From a virus: a stretch of 30,944 nt of DNA. Of the stretch, positions 609 through 30,673 are shown one piece after another (positions within the stretch are counted from its first letter, which is position 1; each line of letters starts with the position of its first letter). The stretch spans positions 1-30,944 of the IMG/VR virus record IMGVR_UViG_3300038358_000286, one strand, 5' to 3'. A program made the translations under genes and the position numbers. The notes under the pieces were generated by a model. The model searched no databases. It worked only from the letters and a program-made list of their open reading frames with translations, and had not been told where the DNA came from.

Positions 609-1652
609 TTACCCGGTGATGACCACAGTGGTGACGCCCCCTCCACCAGCATCGGCAGACTGATGAGCGCCGATGTCCATGCCAGGGGAACTCGACCCAC
701 TGCCATCATACCCGGCGTTCCTGGCAGCGGAGCTTGCCCCAAGGGTGTAGTCGCTACCCTCTGCCGTGAACCCAGGCGCATCTGTGATGTCTGTGGCCTG
801 GGCATCCGTCTCCCAGTTGACATACTGGTTTGTGTTCCCGTTGATGAGATTGTTCCGGCCAATGGCAAACCCATTGCATGGGGTCGCATCTCCGTTGATC
901 CCATTCACGCAGTCGTAGATGATGGTATTGACGAGGACATGGGTAAAGTCTGAGTAGCCCGAGAAGTCCACGCCGGAGCCAGTGTCCTTGCTGTCACCAT
1001 CAACGGTGCAGTTGATCGCAGTGCCACCACGCCTGACCTGGAGGCCGATGCTTGCGTTGGAGTTCGCCATCACGCCGAAGGCAACACCACTGTACCCAGG
1101 ACACCGGACTCCATACCCGCCATTGCCGCTGATATCTCCACCGATGACCTTGATATCGTTCTCGGCATAGATGCCATCACTGGAATTGCCCGTGGCCACG
1201 CAATCGACAAAGCTGGTGAACCCCCCAGTGTCGAACCCACGGATTCCGCAATTCAGGGCTTGGCAGTTTTCGAACATGATGAGGTACCGGCTGGAGAGGT
1301 TCCACCCGTCATAGTCGGCGTTCTCCACCGTGATGTTCCTGAAGGCATAATACTGGTAGGTCGAGGTGGTGTAGAAGATGCCATTATTCAGGCCCGTGGC
1401 GTCGATGGTCGCCATGCCGCCGTCGCCGGGGGTTGATGTGTAACCCTCGATGATGACCGAGGCGGATGCCGTGCCAGCGGTGTCGATGGTCGCCATCTCG
1501 GTATAATCGCCGGAGGCCTTGACGTAGATGTGATCACCAGCGGAGAGGGTGTTCATGGCGTGGTCGATGGTGGCCCAAGCGTTGCCAGCACCTTCACTGG
1601 TGCCAGCGTTCCCATCGTTCCCGACAGCAGTGTCAACGTAGTAGGTGGCCAT
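609..1652 (-). CDS. Right-handed beta-helix tail spike-like protein
   Basis: 347 residues. The start YYVDTAVGNDGNAGTS followed by AWATIDHAM is the typical opening of parallel beta-helix proteins of the pectate-lyase-like type. The middle (about 90-260) consists of repeated short rungs rich in N, G, C and hydrophobic residues. Near the end, a DIGAHQ motif at about 326-331 matches the DIGA(Y/H) closing motif of choice-of-anchor Q and beta-helix proteins, followed by a Gly-rich tail. The likely role is a receptor-binding or glycan-degrading spike at the tail tip. Catalytic residues cannot be assigned by eye. Its ATG overlaps the stop of the upstream gene by one base (TAATG), so translation is probably coupled. 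Confidence 0.65.
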   Translation of the reverse strand: MATYYVDTAVGNDGNAGTSEGAGNAWATIDHAMNTLSAGDHIYVKASGDYTEMATIDTAGTASASVIIEGYTSTPGDGGMATIDATGLNNGIFYTTSTYQYYAFRNITVENADYDGWNLSSRYLIMFENCQALNCGIRGFDTGGFTSFVDCVATGNSSDGIYAENDIKVIGGDISGNGGYGVRCPGYSGVAFGVMANSNASIGLQVRRGGTAINCTVDGDSKDTGSGVDFSGYSDFTHVLVNTIIYDCVNGINGDATPCNGFAIGRNNLINGNTNQYVNWETDAQATDITDAPGFTAEGSDYTLGASSAARNAGYDGSGSSSPGMDIGAHQSADAGGGGVTTVVITG

Positions 1653-10860: not shown

Positions 10861-11865
10861 CTAACTTGCATTGCCCCTGCCGAAGGTAGCCACCGCGACA
10901 TCATCCTCCATCTGGATGGTCGGCATGGTACCAACAGCCCTCGCCTCAACCGTGAACTCTGTCCTCTCGGAGGACCCATCGATCTCAGGCCAGAGGTTGC
11001 TCGTCATCTGGAACTTCGACCCCGTAATGGTGCAGACCGAAGAGGCAGTCGTGGAAGCAACCGCAGTGAAAGAGAAGTACCCGTCGGACCCTGACAGGGC
11101 AACATCATAGAAGCCATCGGAAGACGTGTCCGCACCGATGACCATGGAGATGGTCACCTCTCGGGCACCCGGCACCAGATTGACGCTGCTGTTGGTCGAG
11201 GTACACATGTCGTAGTAGAACTGGAAGCCATTGTTGAAGGTCAACGTAGCCTCCTTCGGGCAGAGGGTAGTGTCCGGGGTTCCGGTGTTGAACCCGAAGG
11301 TCCAATTCCAGTCATCGAACACGAAGGCCCTCTCATGGGCACCCTCTCCAGGGAAGACCGGAGAGGTCATGTTGATCGTGTTGTGGGCGGCAGACCGGGC
11401 CATGCCCTCTACCGCGATGGTCGTGACCTCTCGGAAGGGGAAGCTGATGGTCAGGGTGTTGCCAACCGCGCCGTAAGCATTCCTTCGGCCAATGCTGGTG
11501 GTCTCGGAATACCCGCTTGTCCAGCCGATAGTCCACGGCTGGATCGCATCGTTGACTGCATCCCATTCGGCACCGGCCCAAGTGTGGTCTCCGCTGGTTT
11601 CGGTCATGCCTCCATAGCCATTGGAGAACAGGTATCCGGCGTACTGAGGAAAGAACCACATCTCAGCAGAGTAGGTGACCTCGTTGCCGATCTTCACACC
11701 ATGCTCGGTGTCGAAGGACCCGGCACCCTGCCACCAGCCCCAGGTCGGCTCCTCGTTGAGGGCTGCCCGGGTGAGGGGTATGACCTGATCACTGGTGACA
11801 GCCGTACCAGCCGTGACCTCGTTACCGAAGTTGAAAATGCCCTTCAGTTTCGCTACCTGGGCCAT
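10861..11865 (-). CDS. Major tail (tail tube) protein
   Basis: 334 residues. The opening AKLKGIFNFGNEVTAGTAVT is typical of siphophage tail tube proteins (an N-terminal signature where 'GxE..AGTA' precedes a beta-rich domain). Several long strand pairs follow, and a C-terminal Ig-like or beta region (about 230-310) ends with FTVEARAVG. The order terminator protein, tube, chaperones, tape measure matches lambda-like tails. A strong GAGGAGG ribosome site lies seven bases before the ATG at 11865, and a terminator follows the gene; both fit a high-copy structural protein. Confidence 0.8.
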   Translation of the reverse strand: MAQVAKLKGIFNFGNEVTAGTAVTSDQVIPLTRAALNEEPTWGWWQGAGSFDTEHGVKIGNEVTYSAEMWFFPQYAGYLFSNGYGGMTETSGDHTWAGAEWDAVNDAIQPWTIGWTSGYSETTSIGRRNAYGAVGNTLTISFPFREVTTIAVEGMARSAAHNTINMTSPVFPGEGAHERAFVFDDWNWTFGFNTGTPDTTLCPKEATLTFNNGFQFYYDMCTSTNSSVNLVPGAREVTISMVIGADTSSDGFYDVALSGSDGYFSFTAVASTTASSVCTITGSKFQMTSNLWPEIDGSSERTEFTVEARAVGTMPTIQMEDDVAVATFGRGNAS

Positions 11866-12062
11866 TAGAGGGCCTCCTCATCTTCAGGGTCTTCCAGGGG
11901 GGCGGGATTGTCATCGACTTGAGCCTCCATTTCGGAGATCGGCTCCAACATCGGATGATCAACCTGACCCTCTAGCTCAATAATCGCCCCGGGCTTCAGG
12001 GCAAGCCTCAACCTGCCAACCTTGTATCGCCCGGGAATTGTAACATTTGCTCGATACTTCAT
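11865..12062 (-). CDS. Small acidic protein of the tail module, unknown
   Basis: 65 residues from the second of two adjacent ATG codons; the first (12065) is too close to the GGGGG ribosome site. The N-terminal half is basic and beta-like (YRANVTIPGRYKVGRLRL), the C-terminal half is very acidic (NPAPLEDPEDEEAL). It lies between the tail-terminator fusion and tail tube genes, and its stop overlaps the tube start (TAATG). No family is recognised; a role in tail assembly is inferred from position only. Confidence 0.5.
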   Translation of the reverse strand: MKYRANVTIPGRYKVGRLRLALKPGAIIELEGQVDHPMLEPISEMEAQVDDNPAPLEDPEDEEAL

Positions 12063-12070
12063 CATTCCCC

Positions 12071-14239
12071 CTACGTCGGAATCAAGCCGAGGGCATTGAC
12101 ACCCTTCCCAGCGGCCTTCGGTTGGGAGCCCTCGTCAGACCCCTGGTATTCCCTGATCTGATCAACCGCAATGTGTCCACCACCAAAGTCCACGATCCAC
12201 AGCTTGACCTCCGTCCCGACCAGTGCGCTTACATCCCACACTACCTCTTCGACAACATGGCTGTCATTGCCAGTTGCAGAGGCGACCATCTCTGAGGTGT
12301 CATTCAGAAGGAGGCCGACATACTGGGTCGCATAGTTGTTGGTCCCCCCGACGGAGATTGAGATGCGGTTCTTGGTCAGAACCCATGGCGAGGATTCGAT
12401 GATACCGTACCTGGACATGTCGGGCCACATCTCGCCAGAACTGATCGTACTCTGGGTCAGGCCTGGACGGTAATGCTTGAAGGCGGTGGCGATGTAGCTG
12501 TTGCCGGTCATGTTCGAAGAGGTCCCGGAAGCGGCCATGTAGGCATCGCCCCAGATGGGTTGGTAGTAGAATGCCCCTGTAGCCGCCTCCTGGTTGTATA
12601 CGCCGCTCCAGACCAAAGATTGGTCCATGGTGCCCGATGCCACCGATAGGCCCCCAGAGACCGCCACACAGCCCTCCATGTTGCCCCAGTTGGTCTCGGC
12701 AGGGTAGTTGCCGTAGGTGCCAGAGGTCAGATCGCTGAAATCGCACTCTGAGTATTTGTAGTAGAAGTACCCAAGGTTGGATGTCTTGTCCTTGTGCTGG
12801 GACAGGACATACTGGGTCCCGCTGATCTGGACAACTTCTGAGGCAGAGCCGGTCTCGCCGGTCCCGGCACCATGGGGGGTCGGGGAGCCAAGAAGCGGTC
12901 CATGGTACTGGTTCTCGGACCATGACCCCTTCATCGAGGATTGGCTTTGATGCCTTGTGCCGCTATTTGCGCCCCACATCAGGTGCCATTCGTCATCGAT
13001 CTTGAACAACGTCGAGGCCTCGGCACCGAAATTGGTCAGGTCGTTGTCGGAGATCGTGGTTGCCGAATGGATGAGGCTGGTGAAATCAGGATAGCCGCCA
13101 CTCTCGGTGACGGTCGCATGGCCGAGGGTCATCTTGCCAGCATTGCTGGACCTCGCGCACAGGAAGAGGTTCCAGGTACCGCCATCCTCGACCACATAGG
13201 CGTCCCTTGAGTCTCCATCCCAATTGGCGGGGTCGGAGTAGGTGCCCCAGGGGGCTCCACCCGCATAGGCCCCACCGTTGCCGGTGTCATCCATGTTTGC
13301 CCAATAGATAGGCTGTTCAGAGTTCAGGGTTGTCCAGATATCGTTCTCGTAGTCGGCATCGGACAGGCATCCGGCAAGGCCGATCTTCTGCTCCCTTGTC
13401 GCCGTTGGGCTGGTGTGGGTCACGCCGGTAAAGAACATCAGGTACTTGTAGGTCGTCTGGGGTGCGCCACCGATCCCATAGTTCGGGTTGTCGATGATGT
13501 AGCAGGCCCAGACGTTGTGGTTCCAGTCCCCCTGGTTGCCGGTGCCAAGCTGGATCAGGGTCCTGCTGCCCCAAGACCTGAGGTCCGGGGATGAGTAATG
13601 GGCAAAGTATTCAGAGCCGTTGGTCTCCCCGGGGCCAGAGATGCCGATGGAGTGCCATCTCCCGTTCACGAACTTCAGAGAGTGGTCATTCTGGGTGGTG
13701 CTGGCAGGCCCCTGGATATAGGGCTGGTTGAAGGTCCAGACCACGCCGTTCTCGCCCTGGTTCCCGGCGTCACCGGCCTCGGAGGGGTAGGCCTCACCCA
13801 CCTTCACCAACAGCGTGACAGTGGCCTCATTTCGGTAGGAGCCGTCCTCCAGGTTCCACCCATAGACAACGCTGGCGATGGAGGTGTGCATGGCGTTGGT
13901 CCCCCATTGGGGATTGGTCCTGGCAACCTCCTTCACGACCTCGGCCATCCACAGAACATTCTGCACGTTTGTGGTGTTGTCGGCCTCGGCCTCCCGGCAC
14001 CGGACCTCGATGTAATACTGGAAGTCATCGAAGCAGGTCCCGGGCTGTTGCCCAGGCTCCTCCTCGGTGGGCGTGATCGAGATAGTCGGGTACTGGACAT
14101 TGACCGGGAAGTCTCCAGCGTGGACAGCCTTGAGGTCAACAAGGGCAAGCTCCGCATTGAGGGAGAGGTAGGCCTCGATAGCCTCGATGATCGTCCACAT
14201 TCTACCGGCAGATGGTGTTGCCCCATGGCTCATCGTCAT
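12071..14239 (-). CDS. Tail-terminator-like domain fused to GH43/GH32-like propeller
   Basis: 722 residues. Residues 1-150 have the size, position and strand/helix pattern of a tail terminator/completion protein (VQYPTISITP, ending ATVTLLVKV). Residues about 165-495 resemble the five-bladed propeller of GH43/GH32-type glycosidases: NDHSLKFVNGRWH (D185), SSPDLRSW (216-223), SRDAYVVEDGGTWNLFL (D346), and EASTLFKIDDEWHLMWG (E407). D185, D346 and E407 sit where the nucleophile, stabiliser and acid/base are expected. Residues about 510-695 form a second beta domain ending VVWDVSALVGTEVKLWIVDF then GGGHIAVDQI, a motif common at the C-terminus of some bacterial glycosidases. The ATG overlaps the upstream stop (ATGA). 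The likely role is a neck or tail protein carrying a glycan-binding or glycan-cutting module; activity is not proven. Confidence 0.65.
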   Translation of the reverse strand: MTMSHGATPSAGRMWTIIEAIEAYLSLNAELALVDLKAVHAGDFPVNVQYPTISITPTEEEPGQQPGTCFDDFQYYIEVRCREAEADNTTNVQNVLWMAEVVKEVARTNPQWGTNAMHTSIASVVYGWNLEDGSYRNEATVTLLVKVGEAYPSEAGDAGNQGENGVVWTFNQPYIQGPASTTQNDHSLKFVNGRWHSIGISGPGETNGSEYFAHYSSPDLRSWGSRTLIQLGTGNQGDWNHNVWACYIIDNPNYGIGGAPQTTYKYLMFFTGVTHTSPTATREQKIGLAGCLSDADYENDIWTTLNSEQPIYWANMDDTGNGGAYAGGAPWGTYSDPANWDGDSRDAYVVEDGGTWNLFLCARSSNAGKMTLGHATVTESGGYPDFTSLIHSATTISDNDLTNFGAEASTLFKIDDEWHLMWGANSGTRHQSQSSMKGSWSENQYHGPLLGSPTPHGAGTGETGSASEVVQISGTQYVLSQHKDKTSNLGYFYYKYSECDFSDLTSGTYGNYPAETNWGNMEGCVAVSGGLSVASGTMDQSLVWSGVYNQEAATGAFYYQPIWGDAYMAASGTSSNMTGNSYIATAFKHYRPGLTQSTISSGEMWPDMSRYGIIESSPWVLTKNRISISVGGTNNYATQYVGLLLNDTSEMVASATGNDSHVVEEVVWDVSALVGTEVKLWIVDFGGGHIAVDQIREYQGSDEGSQPKAAGKGVNALGLIPT

Positions 14240-14682
14240 GGCTTTTTCCCATCCTTAATGTAGGTTGCCAACTTCTTACTGAAAAGCCGATCTGAGGCGG
14301 GACCCCAGTGGAGGAACGGGCGCTGCACCATGTTGGCAGTACCATCCTGGTGGTACTTGTAGTACGGCACATGCGATTCTCTGACGCCGATTTTGGCTGT
14401 CCTCTCTGTGACCCGCCTCAGATGGCCGTGGCCACCCTTCTGGGTTGCAGAATAGAGCCGACCAGTCTTTATCAGTATAGGATTTGGGCTCCTGGTGGCC
14501 TCCCATGGGGAAATGCCATCATAGGCTCCCGCTGCCTTGAAGCGACGGTCGGTATCTTCCTCCACCCGGTCAGCAGCCCAATGCATGACAGGGCGAAGGT
14601 TCTTGACCCTCTTCGCCCTGGTAAGGGTGTCGAGCTTGGCCTTCGTTAGACCGACTGTTCGGACCTGGACCCGAAACGCCAT
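14236..14682 (-). CDS. Virion morphogenesis / tail completion protein (gpG-like)
   Basis: 148 residues, basic. The motif PWEATRSPNPILIKTGRLYSA followed by a beta region and PYYKYHQDGTANMVQRPFLHW is characteristic of the Mu gpG / phage virion morphogenesis family, which acts at the head-tail joint. It sits between a connector gene and the tail-terminator-like gene, exactly where such proteins occur. It overlaps the upstream gene by 37 bases and the next start as ATGA. Confidence 0.75.
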   Translation of the reverse strand: MAFRVQVRTVGLTKAKLDTLTRAKRVKNLRPVMHWAADRVEEDTDRRFKAAGAYDGISPWEATRSPNPILIKTGRLYSATQKGGHGHLRRVTERTAKIGVRESHVPYYKYHQDGTANMVQRPFLHWGPASDRLFSKKLATYIKDGKKP

Positions 14683-15110
14683 TCCTCTGCCACCTCGTTC
14701 ACATTCACCACCTGCACATTCGAAGGCAGTGAGTACATGATGTTGTTGTCAGTGTGAGATCCCCACGGACTCTGCCTCGGATGGTTTGCCACCGTCAGCA
14801 TCGTAGGCTTCTCCAGGACCATGTTGAGGCGGCGAACAGCCCACCGCCTCAACTCGTCCACCTTCTCGACCTTGTTCGACATGTGGGAGCCCGTGTAGGC
14901 CTCTAGGGCATAGGCGGCACCGAAGGCCTCCGATACGCCCTGGATGACCTTATCCACGGATGCCCCGAAGGGGGTCTGGAACATCGGCCTCAACCAAGCG
15001 TCGATGTCACCATCCCCCCTCAGGATGTGTCCAGACGCAGTGGTATCCCCCATGACCGAAGAGGTCACGAAGGGAATGAGGTCACGGAGGCCAGACACAT
15101 TGCAGTACAT
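14646..15110 (-). CDS. Head-tail connector / DUF1320-like protein
   Basis: 154 residues. GDGDIDAWLRPMFQTPFG at about 32-49 followed by VIQGVSEAFGAAYALEAYTG matches the pattern of head-completion adaptors (gp6/DUF1320-like), where a short acidic 'D..ID..L' helix precedes a helical bundle. It comes after the capsid and glycosyltransferase genes and before the tail completion gene, consistent with an adaptor under the portal. The ATG overlaps the glycosyltransferase stop by one base (TGATG). Confidence 0.6.
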   Translation of the reverse strand: MYCNVSGLRDLIPFVTSSVMGDTTASGHILRGDGDIDAWLRPMFQTPFGASVDKVIQGVSEAFGAAYALEAYTGSHMSNKVEKVDELRRWAVRRLNMVLEKPTMLTVANHPRQSPWGSHTDNNIMYSLPSNVQVVNVNEVAEEWRFGSRSEQSV

Positions 15111-16417
15111 CAGATCACCTCATCGAAGAGTTCGACCCACTTCTTGCAGACATTCGGCCACGCGATCTCTTCAGCGTAGGCCATCGCATTGTCCAACCTG
15201 ACCTTGAGTTCATCTGGCGTATTGCCAGCCCGGTCCTCCAGGATCATCTTCGCCACATGGGTCATGTTGTTGGTCAAGTTGTTTACCGAAACCCTGGGAC
15301 GGAATCCGGTGCCATCGACCTGCACCATGCCCTGTGGCCCCTCGCCGCATTTGACCGGCCACCCACGAAGGAGGTCAGAGTTCTCGGCTTCCTCGGCCCC
15401 GGGGATGTTAAGCATCTCCGACAGGGAGGTGTTGTGGGGCGCGATCACCGGGGTCATCGTCGCCATTGCCTCGGTCACCGGGAGGCCCCAGCCCTCGCCA
15501 AGGGTGGCCGTGACAAAGATGTCGGCAGCGTTGTAGATCATGTTCAGGACATCGACGCCCACCGCCCGACCCGGATTGTGATCCTCCTTGAAGGACACGT
15601 CCTTGCCTTCCCCAACTTCCATCCCCAATGACAGGACGGCTGCGTGTTGGTGTGGCCCGTTGTCCTCTGGGTGCATGTGGAAGTAGAGGTGAGATTTGAT
15701 GTCCGGGTTGGCTTCCTTGAACCCATGGTAGGCAAGGATGATGTCACCGTTGGACTTCCTCACCTGATTCCTGGCCACCTGGACAAAGAGAACAGTCTCA
15801 TCGTCCACCTTCATCACGTCACGCCGGAAGGCCATGACAGACTCCTTCTCCTCGACGCGGAAGGATTCGATGTCCGTCCCATGAGGGATGACCTTGCAGC
15901 GATTGGCAACGGCTGGGTTCACAAGCCCGACCATCTCTTTCGAGAACTCGTTGTAGGTCACTGGGGCATCTGCATGTTCGACCCCAGGGAGCCAGCCCTC
16001 ATGGAGGAAGTAGGCGTCGATGGGGAAGTAGTAGATGATCGGCGCGGAAGGAGGCGTCGGTGTGCCGGTCGGTGAGGTCTTCAGAATGGCCAACCGCTCG
16101 GCCAGGACATTGATGTCGTTCAGGATGAAGACGCCATCGTACTCATCGGACCAGTACCGGAAGCCGAAATTAGGACCACCGAAAGCATCACCGAAGCCTG
16201 TCTGAAGGGCACTCTTCTTCTCGATGCCTCCAGGCCAGACCCGGTATGGATACTCTTCGGGGTCATACGGATCGCCCCAGTAATTCACGCCGATGAAATC
16301 GATCTCGTATCTCCCGGTGTCATGGAGGGCTCTGGCGATGTGTCGGTTCACAGTGCCGAACCCGGTGGTAACCATGGGGCCATCGCCCCAGAACAGTAAC
16401 TTCTTCTTGTCTCCCAT
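15110..16417 (-). CDS. GT4-type glycosyltransferase inside the head module
   Basis: 435 residues from ATG 16417, which follows GAGGAG at five bases; a longer frame through the terminator hairpin is rejected. The protein has a GT-B layout: an N-terminal half beginning KKLLFWGDGPMVTTGFGTVN, and a C-terminal half with LFVQVARNQVRKS (donor-binding domain start), FVTATLGEGWGLPVTEAMA and VIAPHNTSLSE. The E-x7-E motif (GEGWGLPVTEA) is the hallmark of retaining GT4 enzymes that use nucleotide sugars. Donor and acceptor are unknown. Its place directly after the capsid gene and its coupling to the connector gene suggest that it acts late, perhaps on virion proteins. Confidence 0.85.
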   Translation of the reverse strand: MGDKKKLLFWGDGPMVTTGFGTVNRHIARALHDTGRYEIDFIGVNYWGDPYDPEEYPYRVWPGGIEKKSALQTGFGDAFGGPNFGFRYWSDEYDGVFILNDINVLAERLAILKTSPTGTPTPPSAPIIYYFPIDAYFLHEGWLPGVEHADAPVTYNEFSKEMVGLVNPAVANRCKVIPHGTDIESFRVEEKESVMAFRRDVMKVDDETVLFVQVARNQVRKSNGDIILAYHGFKEANPDIKSHLYFHMHPEDNGPHQHAAVLSLGMEVGEGKDVSFKEDHNPGRAVGVDVLNMIYNAADIFVTATLGEGWGLPVTEAMATMTPVIAPHNTSLSEMLNIPGAEEAENSDLLRGWPVKCGEGPQGMVQVDGTGFRPRVSVNNLTNNMTHVAKMILEDRAGNTPDELKVRLDNAMAYAEEIAWPNVCKKWVELFDEVI

Positions 16418-16432
16418 TTTCTCTCCTCGTGT

Positions 16433-16465
16433 AAAAAGGGGGACGGAGCGTTGGCCCCGCCCCCC
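16433..16465 (-). terminator. Rho-independent terminator after major capsid gene
   Basis: On the transcribed strand, a 12-base arm (16465-16454) pairs fully with a second 12-base arm (16449-16438), counting two G-U pairs, around a four-base loop, and is followed by TTTTT (16437-16433). It lies 33 bases after the capsid stop and 16 bases before the glycosyltransferase start, so it should uncouple high capsid expression from the genes downstream while allowing some readthrough. Confidence 0.85.
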
Positions 16466-19851: not shown

Positions 19852-20079
19852 CTACTTGGCCATGAATTCACGCAAAACCACAACGATCACTGACACGCCC
19901 AGGCCCCACGCACCGCCGAGAAACGAGGCCCTAGTCCTGGCCGAGGCCTTTATTTCGGCTATCTCGACCCGCAACGCCCCAATATCCTTACGGATCTCCT
20001 TAATGTCCTTACCGTGGCCCTCCAGGGTGATCAAGATGTGATTTGCCCAGGCCTTAAAATCATCATGAACTTCCGGCAT
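19852..20079 (-). CDS. XhlA-like small membrane protein with coiled coil
   Basis: 75 residues. Residues 15-45 form an amphipathic heptad-like helix (EGHGKDIKEIRKDIGALR), then a C-terminal single membrane span (FLGGAWGLGVSVIVVVL) and a short tail. This layout matches haemolysin XhlA-type and other holin-associated proteins. It overlaps the cupin gene by 17 bases. The role is probably accessory to membrane lysis; it could also be a spanin-like or antiholin protein. Confidence 0.5.
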   Translation of the reverse strand: MPEVHDDFKAWANHILITLEGHGKDIKEIRKDIGALRVEIAEIKASARTRASFLGGAWGLGVSVIVVVLREFMAK

Positions 20080-20464
20080 CAGGGTAGCCTTCCTCTGCTG
20101 GGACCGTGACCGCGATAATCATGGTGTCTTCTACAGCGGTAAATGAGTGCGGTACATGCGGCCTAAGGCCACAATGATCTCCAGGGAAAAGCTCTACCTT
20201 CTCCCCACCATTGACCTCAACAATGGCATGGCCACTGACAAGTATGAGGTGTTCGGTGACGGGATGTTCATGACGGGGGTATGTATCACCCTCAGGGACA
20301 ATGCCCCTAAGGACGGCAACACGGTTTTCCTTGTAGAGCCCATAAAGAGCGGTACTGCCAACAGCGCCGAGCATCACCATAGATGGTGCGGTCGGCAGCT
20401 TGTTGGTAAGCTCTCTCAGCTTTTCGATGTTGTCTGCCACGCTGGGGGCTCCTCTGGTCCTCAT
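20063..20464 (-). CDS. Small cupin-fold protein
   Basis: 133 residues from ATG 20464, which overlaps the portal stop as ATGA; a longer frame would lie inside the portal gene. Residues 60-108 carry a typical single cupin core: YPRHEHPVTEHLILVSGHAI, a GG turn, LFPGDHCGL and PHVPHSF. The likely metal ligands are H65, H67, E71 and H106. Cupins bind metals and small molecules, and may act as enzymes or structural parts; here the substrate is unknown. It stands between the portal and putative lysis genes, an unusual place. Confidence 0.7.
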   Translation of the reverse strand: MRTRGAPSVADNIEKLRELTNKLPTAPSMVMLGAVGSTALYGLYKENRVAVLRGIVPEGDTYPRHEHPVTEHLILVSGHAIVEVNGGEKVELFPGDHCGLRPHVPHSFTAVEDTMIIAVTVPAEEGYPDAGSS

Positions 20465-22890
20465 CGGCCGATCCATTCTAAGACAACATCGCCCCCAAAA
20501 CCCATCAGGGTTGTGGAAGCGGAATCGATAGAGGCACATGCTTCGGTCTTCCAACAGGGGTCTTTGAGGGCCACAGAGATCGACTCTCTGACAGCCTCCT
20601 CGGGTTTCCCACTGGCCATGCCCAGCTTGCCAGCAAGAACCCCACCCTGAACCATCGCGTTCATTGTCCCGGCAAGGGCATAAGCCGCCTCATTGATGCC
20701 ACCCAATTTACCACTGAAGAGAGGTGTCAGATCTCCATAGGTCTCCACCATGGCCTCTGACAGGCCCATGGGGGGTCGTTCACCATCCGGGAGGGCATAC
20801 ACCTCATCCCGGTCCTTCTCGGCCCCCTGGAGGGCATGGGCGGCACCCCTGAAGACATTCTCGGCAAGAACCTCGGCCAGGGTCTCTTTGAATCGGCCAA
20901 GCTGGCGAACCCTGATCTCTTCGAACCTCTTGGGGTCGCCGGAAGCCAAGACCTCTTTCTTGTCGAGTTGTCCGAGGAATTGCTCCCTGCAAATCCTGAA
21001 CTCTTCCTCAACCAGTTCCACAACAGGCCCGGTAACGGGGTCTGGCAAGTCTGATTGCTTGGAGGTCCCGGAGCCCTGGTTGACGGGAATCCACCTGTCT
21101 GGCGGCTTGGGGCCATCCTCCTCCCCCTCGCCAATGCCCTCCTCACCACTCTTGGGTATGGAGTTCTCGACAACAGACAGCGGAACCGGGTCCATGATCT
21201 CATGCCCATGATTCAGGTCAGGCCAGACCCGAGAGGCTACAACCTGATGGCCGTGGTCCACCGCAACAGCCTTGTCACCTATGACTGGATGGGCGTGACC
21301 ATTGGAAGCGCCGGTCGCGGAGAACCCAGTCTGGAGGTCATGGGTGTGGCCATTCACGGGCATGACAACACCGTTGGCTATCTTGTGTTGGTGGAGGATC
21401 GGTAAGGCAATACCATTGCCGAGGTCATCGAGGACGATACTGTGGGCATGGCCATGGATTACAGTAGAGACAAAGGCCTGCGTTGGCTTTGCCTGCCCAT
21501 CCCCCAAGCCGCTGGACCCGCACCAGTCATCCGAATGTGTAGTGGTGGCGCGGTTATCCTTCGGCTTCGGCTCGACACCGGTCTTGTCGTCGGTGGGCTC
21601 TCGGAGCTTCTCTTCTCCGGGCACACCCAGGGCCGCGATAGGGTCGGGCTTGGGCTCCTTCTTCGGGAGGCCTGCACCCTCCGAGGGCAGGTTGAGACGC
21701 TCCCTGATGATCGGGTCTTCGGGAGAGACGATCTGGCCATCGACCAGAGCCAGGAACATGTCGGCAACAGACCGCTCATCGGCAGGCTTGTACCCCATGA
21801 ACCGGAACTTCGGGTACTCCTCGACATCGGAGAAATTGACATCAATGATCCGGCGAACCAACTGCTCCCTGACCACGGTCTCAAGCTCTCTGCCGATGCC
21901 CTCAAGGACCCAGATGAAGTTGGACGCATGGACCTGACCGAGGGAGTAGGAGCCGGATCGGTCACCTTGATCCTGGATCAAGTCAGGAACAAGGATGCCC
22001 CTGGCAATCATCTTGTTGAAGTAAGACAGGGCCTTCAGGAAGGCGTCCGAGCCCCCGGTGCCGACCTCTAGGAGTTCAACCTCCCACTTCTCCGGGATGA
22101 TGACCGCCGAATTGCCCTGCATCCTTCGGAGGAAGTCCAGGACCTCTTTCTTTTCAGTCTGAGCCGACCCGGGAGGGTACTTGCCGACCGCAGTCGGGGA
22201 TGCAAACTTCTCCAGGTGTGCGCCCCACCACTTCTCCAATGCCTTTTTGATGAAGTAGGGCCTGTAAACCGGCTGAAGATCTGACCGCCCATAATACCCT
22301 GTCGGCTCCTTCTGGTAGGAGTAGACGATGAACTTGTCGGTCGGGTACTTGCGCTCCTTGCCGGTCACTTTCTGGACAACGCCCCACCGGAGCATGTTGC
22401 CGAATCGGTCCACCCGGAGTTGGATGCCATGAGGCGGCTTGGCCTTCAGGGCCTTGACCCCCAGGTATCCAGCCCATGGGCCAGATTCATAACGCCCCCA
22501 GATGATCTCCACACAGGCAAAGCCATAGCGCAGGGCCTCCATCAAGTCCCGAAGGAACTCATGGGTAGAGCCTTGCATGTGGTCCAGGGTGTACTTCAGG
22601 AAGTCGAGGTGTTTCTTGCCGCCCTCGGCGGCGGTGTACTCCCACCCGGTCATCAATCTGGCCATGACCTTCGTGTGGTGGCAGGCACGGACCTGGGCAT
22701 CCGTGGCATACATCTCATCGAAGACCTCAAGGCCCTGAGACTGTGAGACGGGATCGGTATATGGGGGGCCAATGGTGGCCTCAAGGGCCACGGGGGAGGT
22801 CACTGAGAGCGCGTATTCCCTCTCAGTGAGAGACTGCTCCTGGACCTCATTGCCGTAGGCGTCGAAGAGAAGCGAATTCAGTCTGCCCAT
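20461..22890 (-). CDS. Mu gp29-like portal protein with His-rich insert and extra C-terminal domain
   Basis: 809 residues, much longer than the usual ~500 residues of this family. Residues 1-400 match Mu gp29-like (DUF935) portals: RYGFACVEIIWGRYE, YYGRSDLQPVYRPYFIKKAL, and HLEKFASPTAVGKYPPGS. Portals form the dodecamer at the capsid vertex through which DNA passes. Residues about 478-563 hold an unusual insert with six or more HxH units (GHAH, HQH, GHTH, GHAH, HGH, HGH), flanked by Pro/Lys/Glu/Asp-rich linkers. Residues about 620-809 form a helical domain with no recognised family; a head-morphogenesis partner is possible. The ATG at 22890 has an AAGGAG site five bases upstream. Confidence 0.8.
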   Translation of the reverse strand: MGRLNSLLFDAYGNEVQEQSLTEREYALSVTSPVALEATIGPPYTDPVSQSQGLEVFDEMYATDAQVRACHHTKVMARLMTGWEYTAAEGGKKHLDFLKYTLDHMQGSTHEFLRDLMEALRYGFACVEIIWGRYESGPWAGYLGVKALKAKPPHGIQLRVDRFGNMLRWGVVQKVTGKERKYPTDKFIVYSYQKEPTGYYGRSDLQPVYRPYFIKKALEKWWGAHLEKFASPTAVGKYPPGSAQTEKKEVLDFLRRMQGNSAVIIPEKWEVELLEVGTGGSDAFLKALSYFNKMIARGILVPDLIQDQGDRSGSYSLGQVHASNFIWVLEGIGRELETVVREQLVRRIIDVNFSDVEEYPKFRFMGYKPADERSVADMFLALVDGQIVSPEDPIIRERLNLPSEGAGLPKKEPKPDPIAALGVPGEEKLREPTDDKTGVEPKPKDNRATTTHSDDWCGSSGLGDGQAKPTQAFVSTVIHGHAHSIVLDDLGNGIALPILHQHKIANGVVMPVNGHTHDLQTGFSATGASNGHAHPVIGDKAVAVDHGHQVVASRVWPDLNHGHEIMDPVPLSVVENSIPKSGEEGIGEGEEDGPKPPDRWIPVNQGSGTSKQSDLPDPVTGPVVELVEEEFRICREQFLGQLDKKEVLASGDPKRFEEIRVRQLGRFKETLAEVLAENVFRGAAHALQGAEKDRDEVYALPDGERPPMGLSEAMVETYGDLTPLFSGKLGGINEAAYALAGTMNAMVQGGVLAGKLGMASGKPEEAVRESISVALKDPCWKTEACASIDSASTTLMGFGGDVVLEWIGR

Positions 22891-24707: not shown

Positions 24708-25383
24708 CGCTCACCCTCGGGTCCTGCTCGGTAAGGGGTTCCTGGGAAGAATGGACAGCCATAATCTCCAGGGCCTGCCACCTGTTCCCCCTGGTGAGGC
24801 CGTAATAGGCGGCAATCCTGTCCACCTCGGCCTCGATGACAACGGCAGCATCCTTGGGGACAGCCTTCCTGCCCATCAGGGACGCGAGGGTTACCCAGTC
24901 ATCCTCCTCCCCCTCACCGGGAAGGGTGATGTCGCGGTTGGCCAATTCATCGAGGTCGATGGAGGCAACGTCGATGATGTTCTCAAGCTGGTCAGCGGTG
25001 TAGGGCATGGTCGAGAGGAGATCCTCAACGTCCAACTCCTTCTTCAGGTTGGCCAGCATCTCAGAGAGGAGGATCGGGTCGGCGTCACCGCGAAGCTCAT
25101 TCATGGTGATGGTGAGCCTCTTTGCCGTGGGTTCATCGACATCGATGATCACGACAGGGATCTCCTCATGGCCAAGATCCTTGCAGGCCCTCCACCGATG
25201 TTCGCCGTCGATGATCTGGTAGGAGTCCTCGCCACCAGGGAGGGGCCTGACCAGGACAGGATCGATCATGCCGAAGCGATTGATCGATTCCTTCTCCTTC
25301 TCAAAGACCGGTGCGCTCATCCTGTTCGGATTCCAGTTGTTTGGAAATAGCCTCTCCATCGATATTGACTCGGTGCGCGGCAT
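24697..25383 (-). CDS. ParB/sulfiredoxin-fold domain protein
   Basis: 228 residues. SMERLFPNNWNPNRM near the start and YQIIDGEHRWRACKDLGHEE at about 65-84 are the box I and box II motifs of the ParB-N fold, which binds CTP or ATP or acts as a nuclease in phage proteins. The C-terminal part has an acidic linker and a short helical tail. ATG 25383 is chosen because AGGAGG lies seven bases upstream and the LFPNNWNPN motif must be inside. This makes it overlap the DpdA-like gene by 83 bases in another frame. Its role may be partitioning, regulation, or linking modification and packaging; the data do not decide. Confidence 0.8.
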   Translation of the reverse strand: MPRTESISMERLFPNNWNPNRMSAPVFEKEKESINRFGMIDPVLVRPLPGGEDSYQIIDGEHRWRACKDLGHEEIPVVIIDVDEPTAKRLTITMNELRGDADPILLSEMLANLKKELDVEDLLSTMPYTADQLENIIDVASIDLDELANRDITLPGEGEEDDWVTLASLMGRKAVPKDAAVVIEAEVDRIAAYYGLTRGNRWQALEIMAVHSSQEPLTEQDPRVSDGE

Positions 25384-26314
25384 TGGCCAGCCTCCTGTTC
25401 CAGATGTTGGTAATCTCTCTCTGCATCTCGACGAGATGGCAGATGTTCTCGACGCACAGGGCGTCCTTGTCGGCCCGTCGGCCTGTGATCTTTGCGCCGA
25501 CATCGTGAGAGATGTGGTGCCGCAATTCCCTGAGGTGTCTGGCCTTGGCGGCATCGGTGTTAGAGCCGGCTTTTTCCAGGGTCCTCTTGAGCGACCGGAG
25601 GGAATTCTTGGTGATCATGTACCCATGCCCACCTACACGCGAATCATAGAACTCGCTCTGGCCGAACTTGTCGGTGGTGGTGAAGGCGGTGGTCGAGTCG
25701 GCGGTGTCTAGGTTGGAGGCCTCCATGAGGGGTCGGCGTACCGCAGCGAATCCGTGACATCTCTTCCCGTGCGAATGGACCTGATCAACGAGCCGCCTCC
25801 AGAGAGGAGGATCAGAGTAGGGAATGTCGCGATTGAACCCCATCCAGTGAATGTCGGGGTGGTTGAGCATGATGTCCCACCCCTTCTGTCCGAGTTCGCG
25901 GTGCCATACGAAGATGCAAGGCCTGCCGCTCTTTTGTTGGTACTGGAACATGAGGGGCCAGACATCCTCGATGATCTTCTGGTTCCCGTAGAGCTTGTAG
26001 AGATCAAGATCGACGAATCGATCCCATAATGGAGACAGTCTATCGAGGTATCTGAAGTAGGCATCGCAGTAGTCCTCTATGGTTGCATAGGGAAGCTCCA
26101 GGCCCCCCTGCGCGTTGAGGTAGGTGAAGGCCCCGGAATCCACAATGCATTCATCGCCATTGGCCCGGAGCCATGCCCAGTATTTGATGGCCTGGGTGGA
26201 CTTCCAATAGGCGAAGGACATGAGGTAGTTGACCTCACCGGGGTACCGCTTCATGACCTCACGCGCCCGACGCATGTGCCCCACCGATGCCGACGCCACG
26301 AAGAAGATTTTCAT
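25301..26314 (-). CDS. dpdA: DpdA-like / TGT-like DNA base transglycosylase
   Basis: 337 residues. Key segments match phage TGT-like (DpdA) proteins: DECIVDSGAFTYL (D59 in the SGAF motif, corresponding to the SGGF motif of tRNA-guanine transglycosylases), FVDLDLYKLYGN at 100-111, IFVWHREL at 134-141, KRCHGFAAVR at 184-193, and TADSTTAFTTTDKFG (D206). These enzymes replace guanine with preQ0-type bases in DNA. Adjacent folE, queC, queD and queE supply the precursor. The ATG at 26314 overlaps the upstream stop by one base (TGATG). The zinc-binding Cys cluster of tRNA enzymes is not visible, as in other diverged members. A related role as tRNA transglycosylase is less likely given the phage context. 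Confidence 0.75.
   Translation of the reverse strand: MKIFFVASASVGHMRRAREVMKRYPGEVNYLMSFAYWKSTQAIKYWAWLRANGDECIVDSGAFTYLNAQGGLELPYATIEDYCDAYFRYLDRLSPLWDRFVDLDLYKLYGNQKIIEDVWPLMFQYQQKSGRPCIFVWHRELGQKGWDIMLNHPDIHWMGFNRDIPYSDPPLWRRLVDQVHSHGKRCHGFAAVRRPLMEASNLDTADSTTAFTTTDKFGQSEFYDSRVGGHGYMITKNSLRSLKRTLEKAGSNTDAAKARHLRELRHHISHDVGAKITGRRADKDALCVENICHLVEMQREITNIWNRRLANAAHRVNIDGEAISKQLESEQDERTGL
25391..25396 (-). promoter_or_regulatory. Ribosome site deciding the ParB-like start
   Basis: AGGAGG on the minus strand lies seven bases before ATG 25383 and inside the DpdA-like coding region. It supports the upstream start over the internal ATG codons at 25359 and 25320, which lack good sites. Confidence 0.7.
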
Positions 26315-26877
26315 CAGATCCAATCCCTGCCGGGGGCAAGCGTCTGGGTCTCTGCCATCCATGACCCCTTGGACTCTTTGGGTGTTCTCCAGCCCTTGCC
26401 CCACACCAGTTCACAGTATTCGACAGCAGGCCACAGCATCGGATAGGTCACACCTTTGAACAGGAACGGATGAACATCGAACAGCCTCGCTGGCAGGGTC
26501 TTCTTGCCGTGGGCATTGAGGTTGAAGATGACGCTGGGGTCGGCAGTAGGCTGGTAGGTGATGATGTCTACGAGGCATCCGTCACGGTGAAAACACTCCT
26601 GGTGGGCGCGGTAGCTACCGTCCTCGATGGTGCCCTCCTTTGGGCCGTCGAGAAACCCTTCGGCGTAAAAGTTCTGCCGTAACACCTTCTTCCATCCCGA
26701 GGTGTCACCCTCCCTTGGCAGGAGGACAGCAAAGTCCAGGTCGGTGTCGGAGGACTGGGGGGCTATCTCGTACTGCCGGTACATGGACAGCAGTTGCCCA
26801 GCATAGACAGCATAGGGGTAAGGTTGCCTGCTGAGAATGTCATTGGCGACAGCCATGATGTCTTCAGCGTGATCCAT
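26314..26877 (-). CDS. LicD-like phosphotransferase / nucleotidyltransferase-fold protein
   Basis: 187 residues from ATG 26877, which has AGAGGG six bases upstream; a GTG at 26901 is a weaker option. The sequence AGQLLSMYRQYEIAPQSSDTDL then DFAV resembles the LicD/fukutin core (G.LL...R.....DTDLD), with the D-x-D-L-D acids near residues 45-49. The C-terminal VEYCELVWGKGWRTPKE resembles the closing 'YG..W..P' motif. LicD enzymes transfer phosphocholine or phospho-polyol from a CDP donor to a sugar. The next gene upstream encodes a CDP-alcohol-forming type of enzyme, which fits. The exact donor and acceptor are unknown. Confidence 0.6.
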   Translation of the reverse strand: MDHAEDIMAVANDILSRQPYPYAVYAGQLLSMYRQYEIAPQSSDTDLDFAVLLPREGDTSGWKKVLRQNFYAEGFLDGPKEGTIEDGSYRAHQECFHRDGCLVDIITYQPTADPSVIFNLNAHGKKTLPARLFDVHPFLFKGVTYPMLWPAVEYCELVWGKGWRTPKESKGSWMAETQTLAPGRDWI

Positions 26878-27304: not shown

Positions 27305-28251
27305 TCAGGCAACACCCCTTCGATAGCCTGTGAGAATTTCTTGCCAGCTAACCGAACCACTTCAGCGCCCACAGCCACATGGCCCTGATACTCATCGGGA
27401 TCGAGAGCAGCCAATAGAGACACAGAACGCGCAAGACCTCTCGCGTCGAGACTTCTGATTCTGCCGGGGTAGTCGTATCCGTAGAGTTCTGGGTAGCAGA
27501 GGTCTTCGGGGATGGAGGGCAAGGTCCCGCAGAGAAAGGCCTCGGCGGCGACGAGCCCGAAGGTCTCCTTTCTCGATGGAACGGCTGCCACCCTCGCCCC
27601 TGCCAAGGCGGTGTAGTAGGCAGTCCTTGAAGTGAATCTGGCCATTCGGATGTGCGTGTATTTGTTGGCCTCCAGGGCAACATCGTAACCCTTGTCTGCC
27701 GACTTCCTCGATACGAAGATTGCGCCATCTTTTTCCTCCAGGGGAACGGGTTCGATGCCGCTGGGCTCGGCAACCGGAATCCCGACAATGGAAATCTTGT
27801 CCAGATAAGTTGCACCGTAAGCAGCATAGAGCAGGTCGCGGTGATATGCGGTGGAAACCCAGATCTCATCCAGGCAATCCAATTGCGCTATGAATGCCCT
27901 GTGGTAGCTGGCAGGGTTAGCAGAATAGGCGTCATGCTCCTCATACGGGCCACCATGGACATACCCAATGAGGCGATGGTTGCCGTTATCGAAGGCCATG
28001 ATGTTCATGCTCTGAACATCGGGGAAGAAGATGGTCGCGGTCGGGTACCTCTCGGCGGCAGAGATGCCAAGGGCACAGGCTCTGGCAGCCTTCATGTCCA
28101 ACTTCTCAAAGATGGTCCGGTCCTTACTGTCCCGATCCTCGTAGGCCATGGTGAGCATCCTTGGCCCAAGAATCTCATACATGGTCTTCAGCATGTGAGA
28201 GGACCAATTCATCGTGCTGTTGTGCTGGGAGACAGCAATAAGGTCAGGCAC
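27301..28251 (-). CDS. GT4-type glycosyltransferase
   Basis: 316 residues from a GTG at 28251. GGAGG lies six bases upstream, while the ATG at 28284 has its GAGGAG only one base away. The start overlaps the queC end by eight bases. GT-B features include a VAVSQHNS-like N-terminus (LIAVSQHNST), GYVHGGPYEEHD in the middle of the first half, IFVSRKSADKGYDVAL at the start of the donor domain, and SRKETFGLVAAEAFLCG with an E-x7-E motif. It probably uses a nucleotide sugar. It sits between queC and the cytidylyltransferase. The acceptor is unknown. Confidence 0.75.
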   Translation of the reverse strand: MPDLIAVSQHNSTMNWSSHMLKTMYEILGPRMLTMAYEDRDSKDRTIFEKLDMKAARACALGISAAERYPTATIFFPDVQSMNIMAFDNGNHRLIGYVHGGPYEEHDAYSANPASYHRAFIAQLDCLDEIWVSTAYHRDLLYAAYGATYLDKISIVGIPVAEPSGIEPVPLEEKDGAIFVSRKSADKGYDVALEANKYTHIRMARFTSRTAYYTALAGARVAAVPSRKETFGLVAAEAFLCGTLPSIPEDLCYPELYGYDYPGRIRSLDARGLARSVSLLAALDPDEYQGHVAVGAEVVRLAGKKFSQAIEGVLPE

Positions 28252-28807
28252 CTTCGACCTCCGTTCCTGGATAACCAGAGACATACTCCTCGGGTGGGAT
28301 GCCGTGACTGCATAGGGCCTCGATCACATCATCCTTCGTGGTCCACAGGAGCGGGGTTGTGATCTTCAGGGGGCACAGGGCTGGGTCACGGGCGAGATTC
28401 ATCGATGTCACCATGTTGTCGGCAAAGCTCTTTGAGCAGTCTGGGAAGAGGGCCTGATCGTCCTTGTCGAACCCGACCCAGATCTCGTCGGCCTTGTAAT
28501 GCTCCGACCATGAGGCAGCGATGGCCAGGAAGACAGCGTTCCTCCCTGGCACCCAGGCGTCGGACACATTCGGTGATTCGTTCCTCGGCGCATCCCCGGT
28601 GAGGGGGTTGGGTGGCAGGCGTACCTCAACGCAGTCTATGTGAAGCTGGAGCCGGTGAGCGGTCTCAAAGGCCTTCTGCCTCTCCTTCATCTTCTGGCCA
28701 TAGTCAATATGCAGGAGACGGATGTCGTCCTTGTCGAAGATCTCTAGGGCTCGGTGCAGCATCAGGCGGGAATCGGCCCCGCCCGAGTACAGGATAATCT
28801 TCTTCAT
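28244..28807 (-). CDS. queC: QueC-like 7-cyano-7-deazaguanine synthase, C-terminally short
   Basis: 187 residues. QueC converts 7-carboxy-7-deazaguanine to preQ0 with ATP and ammonia. The PP-loop is SGGADS at 8-13. VPGRN at 86-90, and FPDCSKSF at 121-128 with MNLA after it, match QueC. Family members usually have ~220 residues and end with four zinc-binding Cys (SCY, then CGxCxxC). This protein ends at about that point, with SGYPG where SCY-G is expected, and no downstream frame restores the Cys motif. It may still work, depend on a partner, or act on a related substrate. It starts four bases into the folE stop region (ATGA). Confidence 0.85.
28258..28262 (-). promoter_or_regulatory. Ribosome site deciding the GT4 start
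   Basis: GGAGG on the minus strand stands six bases before GTG 28251, within the last codons of queC. It favours the GTG start and tight translational coupling with queC. Confidence 0.65.
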
Positions 28808-29364
28808 TTGGCCCCCCTTACTAAAGACATAAACTCACCCCTGCCCTCACTCTCCATTAGACATCCCCTGAGAGCAGAGGTGACCATCTCGCTATTCTGT
28901 TTCTCTACCCCACGCGCCCTCATGCACAGGTGGGAGGCCTCGATCACGACAGCAACGCCTTTCGGATGAAGGACGGTATCGACTGCATCCGCGATCTGGT
29001 CTGTGAGCCGCTCCTGGTTCTGGAGGCGTCTTGCAAATAGATCGACGGCCCGTGCCAGCTTAGAGATGCCGACGATGCGCTTGTCAGGTATGTACCCGAC
29101 ATGGGCCTTGCCGAAGAAAGGCAGAAGGTGATGTTCGCAGGTAGAGAAAAATTCCACGTCACGCAGGATGACAAGACCATTGTGTCCCTCCGATTCAAAG
29201 AAGGTGGAGAGGACCTCCTCGGCGCTCTGGCTGTAACCGACGAGAAGGTCTTGCCAAGCCGAAGCAATCCGGCGAGGTGTGTCTGCAAGGCCCTCCCTTT
29301 CGGGGTCCTCTCCGACAGTGAGGCAAAGATGGTGAAACCATGAAGCGTTGAAGTCTATGTTCAT
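28804..29364 (-). CDS. folE: GTP cyclohydrolase I
   Basis: 186 residues from ATG 29364, which overlaps the queE stop as ATGA; a longer frame would lie inside queE. FolE converts GTP to dihydroneopterin triphosphate, the first step of preQ0 (and folate) synthesis. Visible signature: [20 protein letters not shown] at 72-91, with zinc ligands C76 and H79, then [20 protein letters not shown] (98-117) and HLCMRARGV (C147). The length is normal for the bacterial type I enzyme. Its role here with queD, queE and queC is 7-deazaguanine production for the phage. Confidence 0.95.
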
Positions 29365-30044
29365 TTCAACCTCAAGAACTTGTGCATCTGGACAGACAGA
29401 CGCCATGGTGAATGGCTCTCCACAAATTGGACGCACCACCTGAGGTTCGGCCAATCGATAAGGTCGCAGCCCTCATCTCCGACACGGGTCCTGTTGGCCT
29501 CTGAGAACTTGTTCATCGGTTGGACAAACCAGCAGTTGCAGGTGAGGACCTCTGGGTATGAGCCCCTGAAGGGTCCGACCCATGGACGTTGCCCCTTGGC
29601 CAGGACGATCTTCACCTCGTCGGGTTTCTGGATGACAACCCTCGCCCCCTTCTTGGGGGACACGGTGACCCAATCGACAATCTTGGCATACTCATGTTCC
29701 AGCTTGATTGTGCCGTTGGTCTCGATGTGGATGTTGAACCCTTCCTTCTTCAGCCTTGCCAGGAGGGGCTTGCAATGCAGGAGGGGTTCGCCGCCGGTCA
29801 GGCACACGGTCTTCGGCCTGGACTTCATCTTCCCTGCGACCCGGAGGTAGCAATCATCGGTCACGTTCTTGATCTCATGGATGATGTCATCCTCGGTCAT
29901 CATCTCGCCGTCACGCCAATCGGTATCACAAAAGATGCAGTCGAGGTTGCACCCGGCGAACCTGACGAAGACAGTTGGGAGGCCCGTGTGCATTCCCTCG
30001 CCCTGAACGGACAGAAAGATCTCGGTGATCTTGTACGATATCAT
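29361..30044 (-). CDS. queE: 7-carboxy-7-deazaguanine synthase
   Basis: 227 residues from ATG 30044, which overlaps the upstream stop as ATGA and has GGAG upstream. QueE is a radical-SAM enzyme that contracts the ring of carboxy-tetrahydropterin. FSVQGEG-type segment is [11 protein letters not shown] at 11-21, the iron-sulfur motif is [11 protein letters not shown] (C32, C36, C39), TGGEPLLH at 83-90 and IHIETNGT at 105-112. The CX3CX2C spacing is standard. The family length is about 210-240. It is one of four preQ0 genes in this block. Confidence 0.95.
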
Positions 30045-30673
30045 GGTGACACTCCGTCGAATGGGATTGTGAATCTCTCGGAACCAGGGACGCCACCCCA
30101 CTTCTTCATGTAGTGGTCCCTCGGGCCAACCTGCTCTCCACCGGAGGAGGCATTGCGCTTGTGGAAGGGGTCGAGAGACTTTGCATTCCCAACAACCCCC
30201 AGCTTTCCCAGCTTGGCCCTGTAGAGGAAATCCCTGTCCTCGTAATAGGCTGGGAAGAAGGCCACATCAAACTTACCAATCGATTCAAACACCCCGCACT
30301 TGAGGGCGAAGGCACACCAGTGGAAGGGGCCGATCATAAGGTCGGGCTCTCCATTACGGAGAAGCTCCCTCTTGATGTCTTCCGGGTCCTGGCCAAGAAC
30401 TATGTCATCGTTCAGGTGGACAACATAGTCGGCCTTGAGGGTGTGGAAGGCGATGTCCGATGCCAGATTCCATGACCCAGCCACGCCGAGATTCCTTCCG
30501 GCCTTCACGATCAGGGTAATGGGCTTCAGGGTCTCCGGGAGGTGGAAGGTCTGCCAGCCGTTATCCACCAGGACCAGTCCAGAGAAGGCGTGGACCCTCT
30601 GGGCCAAGTCCTGAAGGCTTTCGGCCAGGAGGTCAGCACGGATGATTGTTGGGATGGCGAACACCAGCTTCAT
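30041..30673 (-). CDS. GT2-type glycosyltransferase
   Basis: 210 residues from ATG 30673, overlapping the queD stop as ATGA. KLVFAIPTIIRADLL opens the GT-A fold, VDNGW is at 36-40, AGRNLGVAGSWNLA at 58-71 and HLNDDIVLG (87-94) holds the Asp pair that would bind metal and nucleotide sugar. YYEDRDFLYRAKLG near 150-165 is the catalytic-end segment. It is short and lacks membrane segments, so it is soluble. It sits between queD and queE, which implies co-translation. Sugar and acceptor are unknown. Confidence 0.8.
   Translation of the reverse strand: MKLVFAIPTIIRADLLAESLQDLAQRVHAFSGLVLVDNGWQTFHLPETLKPITLIVKAGRNLGVAGSWNLASDIAFHTLKADYVVHLNDDIVLGQDPEDIKRELLRNGEPDLMIGPFHWCAFALKCGVFESIGKFDVAFFPAYYEDRDFLYRAKLGKLGVVGNAKSLDPFHKRNASSGGEQVGPRDHYMKKWGGVPGSERFTIPFDGVSP

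Follow-up and report, generated by a model that had tools for sequence, protein, structure and literature searches.

The window analysed here, the whole stretch of 30,944 bases, is a complete IMG/VR virus record in a single contig. On its minus strand, the head genes, read by position and by eye, run in the order small terminase, large terminase, portal, a protease/scaffold-like gene and a small head protein; the order continues with capsid protein E (match at 3e-34), a GT4-like glycosyltransferase, a head-tail adaptor candidate, an HK97gp10-like neck protein and a fusion gene, downstream of which lie a 66-aa ORF, a tail-tube candidate and, farther on, the tape measure. The features of the fusion gene and its surroundings are the following:

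14646..15110, minus strand: head-tail adaptor candidate; its orthologue in the related phage L005 (12828-13295) is weakly similar to Mu Gp36
14236..14682, minus strand: HK97gp10-like neck/tail-completion protein, the upstream neighbour (phrog_26, 8.6e-13)
12071..14239, minus strand: fusion gene in a single ORF, 722 aa, with a predicted tail terminator, a GH32/GH43-type propeller and a GH32-associated beta-domain
13790..14239, minus strand: predicted tail-terminator domain, residues 1-150 (AlphaFold2 fold, structural matches, homology to L005:13732-14208)
12686..13738, minus strand: five-bladed propeller assigned to the GH32/GH43 superfamily, residues ~168-518 (bridging relatives, profiles, AlphaFold2 fold matches)
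13685..13687, minus strand: D185, first catalytic-position acid, in the ND motif of blade 1 (aligned with the ND of T. maritima beta-fructosidase; invariant in alignment A4, its position having been part of the search motif)
13202..13204, minus strand: D346, second acid, in the RD motif of blade 3 (invariant in A4; on the RDP of 1uyp and L095)
13019..13021, minus strand: E407, third acid, at the E-C/S-P position of blade 4 (invariant in A4; on the ECP of L095)
12836..12838, minus strand: E468, a further invariant Glu, at the HAxE position of blade 5, with Ser in place of His (alignment A4)
12149..12685, minus strand: accessory beta-domain, residues ~519-697 (609-697 share homology with an insert of bacterial GH32 enzymes)
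11865..12065, minus strand: small ORF, 66 aa, between the terminator gene and the tube gene (also an ORF in contig L001; L005 is arranged alike)
10861..11865, minus strand: tail-tube protein candidate, downstream (by position; the same-slot counterpart L005:14435-15430 matches Phage_tube_2 at 7.7e-11)

The fusion gene starts with an ATG at 14239, overlapping the stop of the upstream neck gene in an ATGA (14236-14239), and its frame is uninterrupted over 722 codons down to the stop at 12071; the initial annotation had given exactly these limits, and the gene lies on the minus strand. Regarding its composition, all three domains match the other structural genes of the window in GC, GC3 and codon usage, so the gene hardly resembles a recent or chimeric patch. 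The fusion recurs on a second contig (L001), where only 2 of 4,395 bases differ; one difference is synonymous and the other leads to the change K265E. In the translation, residues ~150-167 have the appearance of a short flexible linker (AYPSEAGDAGNQGENGVV) between the first domain and the second. That the protein has a three-part architecture is held to be almost certain.

As for the first part, structures were modelled with AlphaFold2 (AF2) domain by domain, because the L005 terminator came out misplaced when all three parts were aligned globally. Residues 1-150 gave the order H-E-E-E-H-E-E (one helix, three strands, one helix, two strands) with a pLDDT of 60, and the best fold matches (VIA) were T5 p142 (Z 12.3), P74-26 (Z 11.3) and lambda gpU (Z 10.8); nearly all the top-ranked structural neighbours were tail terminators, and the earlier proposal that the first ~150 residues are terminator-like therefore came through the fold check with overwhelmingly terminator matches. 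Foldseek also returned glycyl-tRNA synthetases, which were set aside as a common arrangement. At the sequence level, residues 1-149 align with almost the entire length (27% identity, E 2e-8, shuffle z 13.7) of a 158-aa protein of L005, to which the propeller and the C-terminal part of the fusion have no alignment; the 49.6-kb L005 record contains no propeller match anywhere. Neither residues 1-150 nor the 158-aa gene has a significant match to a known terminator family in Pfam or PHROG; the terminator family is sequence-diverse, and a match of that kind is therefore a weak criterion. The assignment of residues 1-150 as a tail-terminator domain thus rests on predicted fold, genome slot and homology.

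The slot itself agrees with the initial annotation, which had placed the gene in the terminator position: it sits after the HK97gp10-like neck/tail-completion gene and before the tail-tube candidate. L005 is the closest syntenic phage found, with a capsid protein 70% identical, and it shares the order capsid, glycosyltransferase, adaptor, neck, terminator slot, small ORF and tube, the slot being occupied by the plain 158-aa homologue. Where the gene order of relatives can be read, the position ahead of the tube candidate is in most cases taken by a protein of ~150-175 aa, which makes the 722-aa form an outlier. A separate observation in the same capsid lineage is the terminator-slot protein of L077 (17460-18194), which has 244 aa and an extra N-terminal stretch that is Ig/FN3-like by eye; it is possibly another decorated terminator.

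Other genes of the window deserve mention in their own right. The GT4-like glycosyltransferase gene (15110-16447, minus strand) lies inside the structural operon, between the capsid and neck genes, with a counterpart in L005 (11075-12406), and GT9-type genes occur in the same region of L073 (11272-13167) and L087 (9453-11489); virion glycosylation is a possible role for such genes. The portal gene (20461-22890, minus strand) has repeated G-H-x-H-like motifs in its C-terminal part (HGHAHS, NGHTHD, NGHAHP, DHGHQV, NHGHEI), which are possible metal-binding hairpins, and similar motifs are present in the L005 portal. By eye, a cupin-like gene (20063-20554, minus strand) stands between the portal and protease genes, with a similar gene in L005 (7302-7772); QueC-, FolE- and QueE-like genes lie side by side at 28244-30101 (minus strand), and together with a possible DpdA-like gene (25301-26404, also by eye) this row suggests 7-deazaguanine DNA modification. 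Finally, the repeat-rich product of 609-1652 (minus strand) resembles, by eye, a parallel beta-helix tail spike, and is possibly a second glycan-active protein, at the distal end.

With respect to the second part, residues ~168-518 have no direct match in Pfam, PHROG or NCBIfam, and neither the whole protein nor the propeller alone matches PF04616 or PF00251 above the curated cut-off. The link to known families comes from bridging bacterial sequences. A degenerate DNA pattern for blade 1 (N-D-H-[ST]-[LI]-x4-G-x-W-[HY]-x2-G) retrieved 35 genome contigs, most of them from one GH43-like family of Chloroflexota and Streptomyces, together with a few others; because the window served as the template of the pattern and a known family guided its design, the agreement in blade 1 is partly by construction. 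Members of this bridging family match PF04616 (GH43) at 5e-19 and PF00251 (GH32N) at 9e-11, and, in the PDB, GH43 arabinanases. With the window left out, the family profile scored 97% in hhalign against the window propeller and 0.1% against a control protein of the window; the profile with the window included matched GH43 4qqs at 6e-20 and the T. maritima beta-fructosidase 1uyp at 5e-13. Independently of the blade-1 motif, blades 3-4 of L095, from a later genome search, match the window at 4.5e-6. The AF2 model of the propeller, guided by an alignment of 20 motif-selected relatives, has modest to low confidence (mean pLDDT 52, blades 1-3 about 55-75), and residues ~481-610 stay below a pLDDT of 50, which leaves the last stretch of the propeller and the N-terminal half of the C-terminal domain ill-defined; the model's structural matches were GH32/43/68/159-type propellers in all 50 of the matches listed, with Z of 17-19. 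The GH43/GH32-like propeller proposed at the outset is thus borne out by fold and, through the bridging proteins, by sequence family, and residues ~168-518 are assigned to the GH32/GH43 five-bladed-propeller superfamily on profile and model grounds.

As for the putative active site, when the profile with the window is aligned to 1uyp, the first two acids (ND and RD) fall on those of the enzyme, and the D-D-E acids are found in blades 1, 3 and 4 as D185, D346 and E407, all at catalytic-acid positions and in the order that had been claimed for them. Of the 53 family columns that are conserved beyond the search motif, 21 are kept in the window, including D346, E407 and E468, and the retained acids (D185, D346, E407 and E468) look selected. 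The family residues lost in the window include P246C, P347A, P409S and H465S, adjacent in sequence to the acids or to conserved motifs; these changes may mean altered or no catalysis. With the acids kept and their surroundings changed, an altered specificity or a lectin function is possible.

Both the three acids and the W-DVS and GGHIAVDQI ending named in the initial annotation are at their places, the latter in the C-terminal beta-domain. Pfam has no model for this domain, nor does its sequence lead to a relative of solved structure; its residues ~609-697 are homologous (hhalign 96%) to an insert in GH32 enzymes of Catenovulum, Streptomyces and Actinomyces. A plasmid search with the full-length protein gave only matches to the C-terminal domain, the annotated ones being in GH32 enzymes. 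In Planctomycetota, the order of propeller then beta-domain is the same as in the window in L093, while in L092 the beta-domain precedes an NDH propeller. More broadly, an unnamed beta-domain of ~140 aa (WDVS...GHINVDQI) is inserted in or flanks GH32/GH43-like enzymes in L029-L032, L092 and L093. A sub-threshold match to PF18781 (Phage_spike_2) over 646-675 (0.003) was set aside, the GH32-associated domain being the better explanation of this stretch.

Regarding its distribution, the full-length protein had no match among INPHARED phages and matched only L001 among viral contigs, where a motif scan and an alignment-guided scan with the propeller recovered only the fusion itself; scans with the terminator domain found only L001, L004 and L005/L028. 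With the propeller, searching genomes by peptide pattern was unsuccessful, and single-protein genome searching is insensitive, since it missed relatives known to be present. The literature, partially covered, yielded no terminator-glycosidase fusion. The fusion architecture is new to the searched collections, and its parts are of known kinds; the initial statement that this layout has no standard phage counterpart holds for the phages searched, the near-identical L001 excepted. At the level of architecture, the original observation is confirmed and its interpretation supported, the likeness of each of the three parts to its relatives going beyond chance.

Each part has parallels elsewhere. The terminators T5 p142, lambda gpU and SPP1 gp17 share fold, size and genome slot with residues 1-150, but have about 130-160 aa and lack the C-terminal enzyme-like module. 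GH32/GH43-type hydrolases (BT1760 levanase, the T. maritima beta-fructosidase, GH43 4qqs) share the propeller fold and the D-D-E acid order, whereas the window propeller is fused to a virion protein, has no direct Pfam or NCBIfam match, and has replacements of the prolines and His beside the acids. Its nearest sequence relatives are NDH-motif GH43-like proteins of Chloroflexota, Streptomyces and Planctomycetota (among L035-L069 and L091-L150), which are cellular, 23-28% identical and without phage parts; some Planctomycetota members (L092, L093) share the accessory domain.

Glycan modules are uncommon at phage necks but already known there, from the neck passage structures of lactococcal 936/P335 phages, in which a BppU-like anchor bears carbohydrate-binding or beta-helix modules (PMC6669499); in the 936 phages they are mostly binding modules (PMC6669499). 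The likeness to the present proposal lies in glycan-binding or glycan-enzyme-like modules at the neck (PMC6669499), but the lactococcal proteins have a BppU-like N-terminus at the head-tail connector, with a proposed portal attachment, and their modules are CBMs or beta-helices, whereas the anchor here would be the terminator and the module is a GH43-type propeller. A BppU-like N-terminus with a helical stalk of the lactococcal type is absent from the window protein, the N-terminus having a terminator fold and no long helices being predicted past residue 154. Extra domains of structural function occur in certain terminators, for example those that contact the sheath in myophages (PMC11784142). 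As for phi11 Gp45, this receptor-binding protein has a five-bladed propeller whose cavity could hold GlcNAc (PMC4901313); like the window protein, it combines such a propeller and proposed sugar binding with a virion protein, but it is trimeric and acts in receptor binding at the distal baseplate, unlike the neck location proposed here. Among the lactococcal neck structures, the extra-domain terminators and the phi11 propeller, there is no terminator with a GH32/GH43-type module.

Taken together, the protein would be a phage tail terminator with a ~570-residue glycan-active module fused at its C-terminus, and the account judged probable is that the terminator ring displays about six such modules round the neck, probably enzymatic and possibly only binding. 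The N-terminal domains would form the usual six-copy ring that stops tail-tube growth and joins the tail to the head; the propeller and beta-domain would hang outside it, because the lumen of a normal terminator is too small for them with the tape measure and DNA passing through. The likeliest task of the modules would be to recognise and cleave a polysaccharide of the host surface or the matrix, with EPS, capsule or biofilm glycan as candidate substrates, perhaps furanoside or fructan-like, and cleavage could take place as the virion works through polysaccharide or is released from debris. Between the two activities, cleavage is somewhat favoured over binding only. As for the origin, the source of the module was probably a bacterial enzyme with the same accessory domain, and the simplest history would be the fusion of this ready-made two-domain enzyme to the terminator, long enough ago for the codon usage to match. 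The fullest version, in which the ring is a platform for six active GH32/GH43-type glycosidases, acquired by fusion of a whole two-domain bacterial enzyme and forming a polysaccharide-degrading collar at the neck beside any distal tail enzymes, is about evenly balanced between right and wrong.

The alternative that survives best, though rather unlikely, takes the propeller as a non-cleaving glycan-binding adhesin, with neck lectins anchoring the virion to polysaccharide of the host or the matrix, in the manner of the phi11 propeller. That conserved residues next to the acids (P246, P347, P409, H465) have been lost would fit, as would the possible GlcNAc cavity of phi11 Gp45 (PMC4901313) and the predominance of binding modules at 936 necks (PMC6669499); however, all four acids are kept amid drift at most other conserved positions, and it is not obvious why a pure lectin would need them. 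It is highly improbable that the module is made with the terminator and then cut off, to end as a free enzyme in the lysate and not on the virion: the linker-like stretch at residues ~150-167 (AYPSEAGDAGNQGENGVV) would suit such a cut, but no protease site or separate start was identified, the frame is continuous and the composition unbroken. Fainter still is the prospect that the propeller and beta-domain are a structural, neck-stabilising decoration with no glycan function; terminators with structural extra domains, like those contacting the myophage sheath, give it a precedent (PMC11784142), but the glycosidase sequence kinship, the kept acids and the GH32-associated accessory domain speak against it. 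An assembly or frame artefact, to which the sharing of the fusion with a single near-identical contig might point, can practically be dismissed in view of the uninterrupted 722-codon frame, the phage-like codon usage throughout and the recurrence of the fusion in L001, which differs at just 2 of 4,395 bases.

In conclusion, the proposed glycan-active neck ring would bear on how terminators are viewed, usually as small and purely morphogenetic proteins: an enzyme-like glycan module on one of them, if true, means that the head-proximal ring of the tail can face the host or the matrix. This raises the question of why sugar-active modules should be placed at the neck and not at the tip, for instance for passage through biofilm, release from debris or lateral adhesion. 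The Ig/FN3-like extension of the L077 protein may hint at decorated terminators that are under-recognised, and the terminator is suggested as a natural attachment point for the display of about six large domains per virion.
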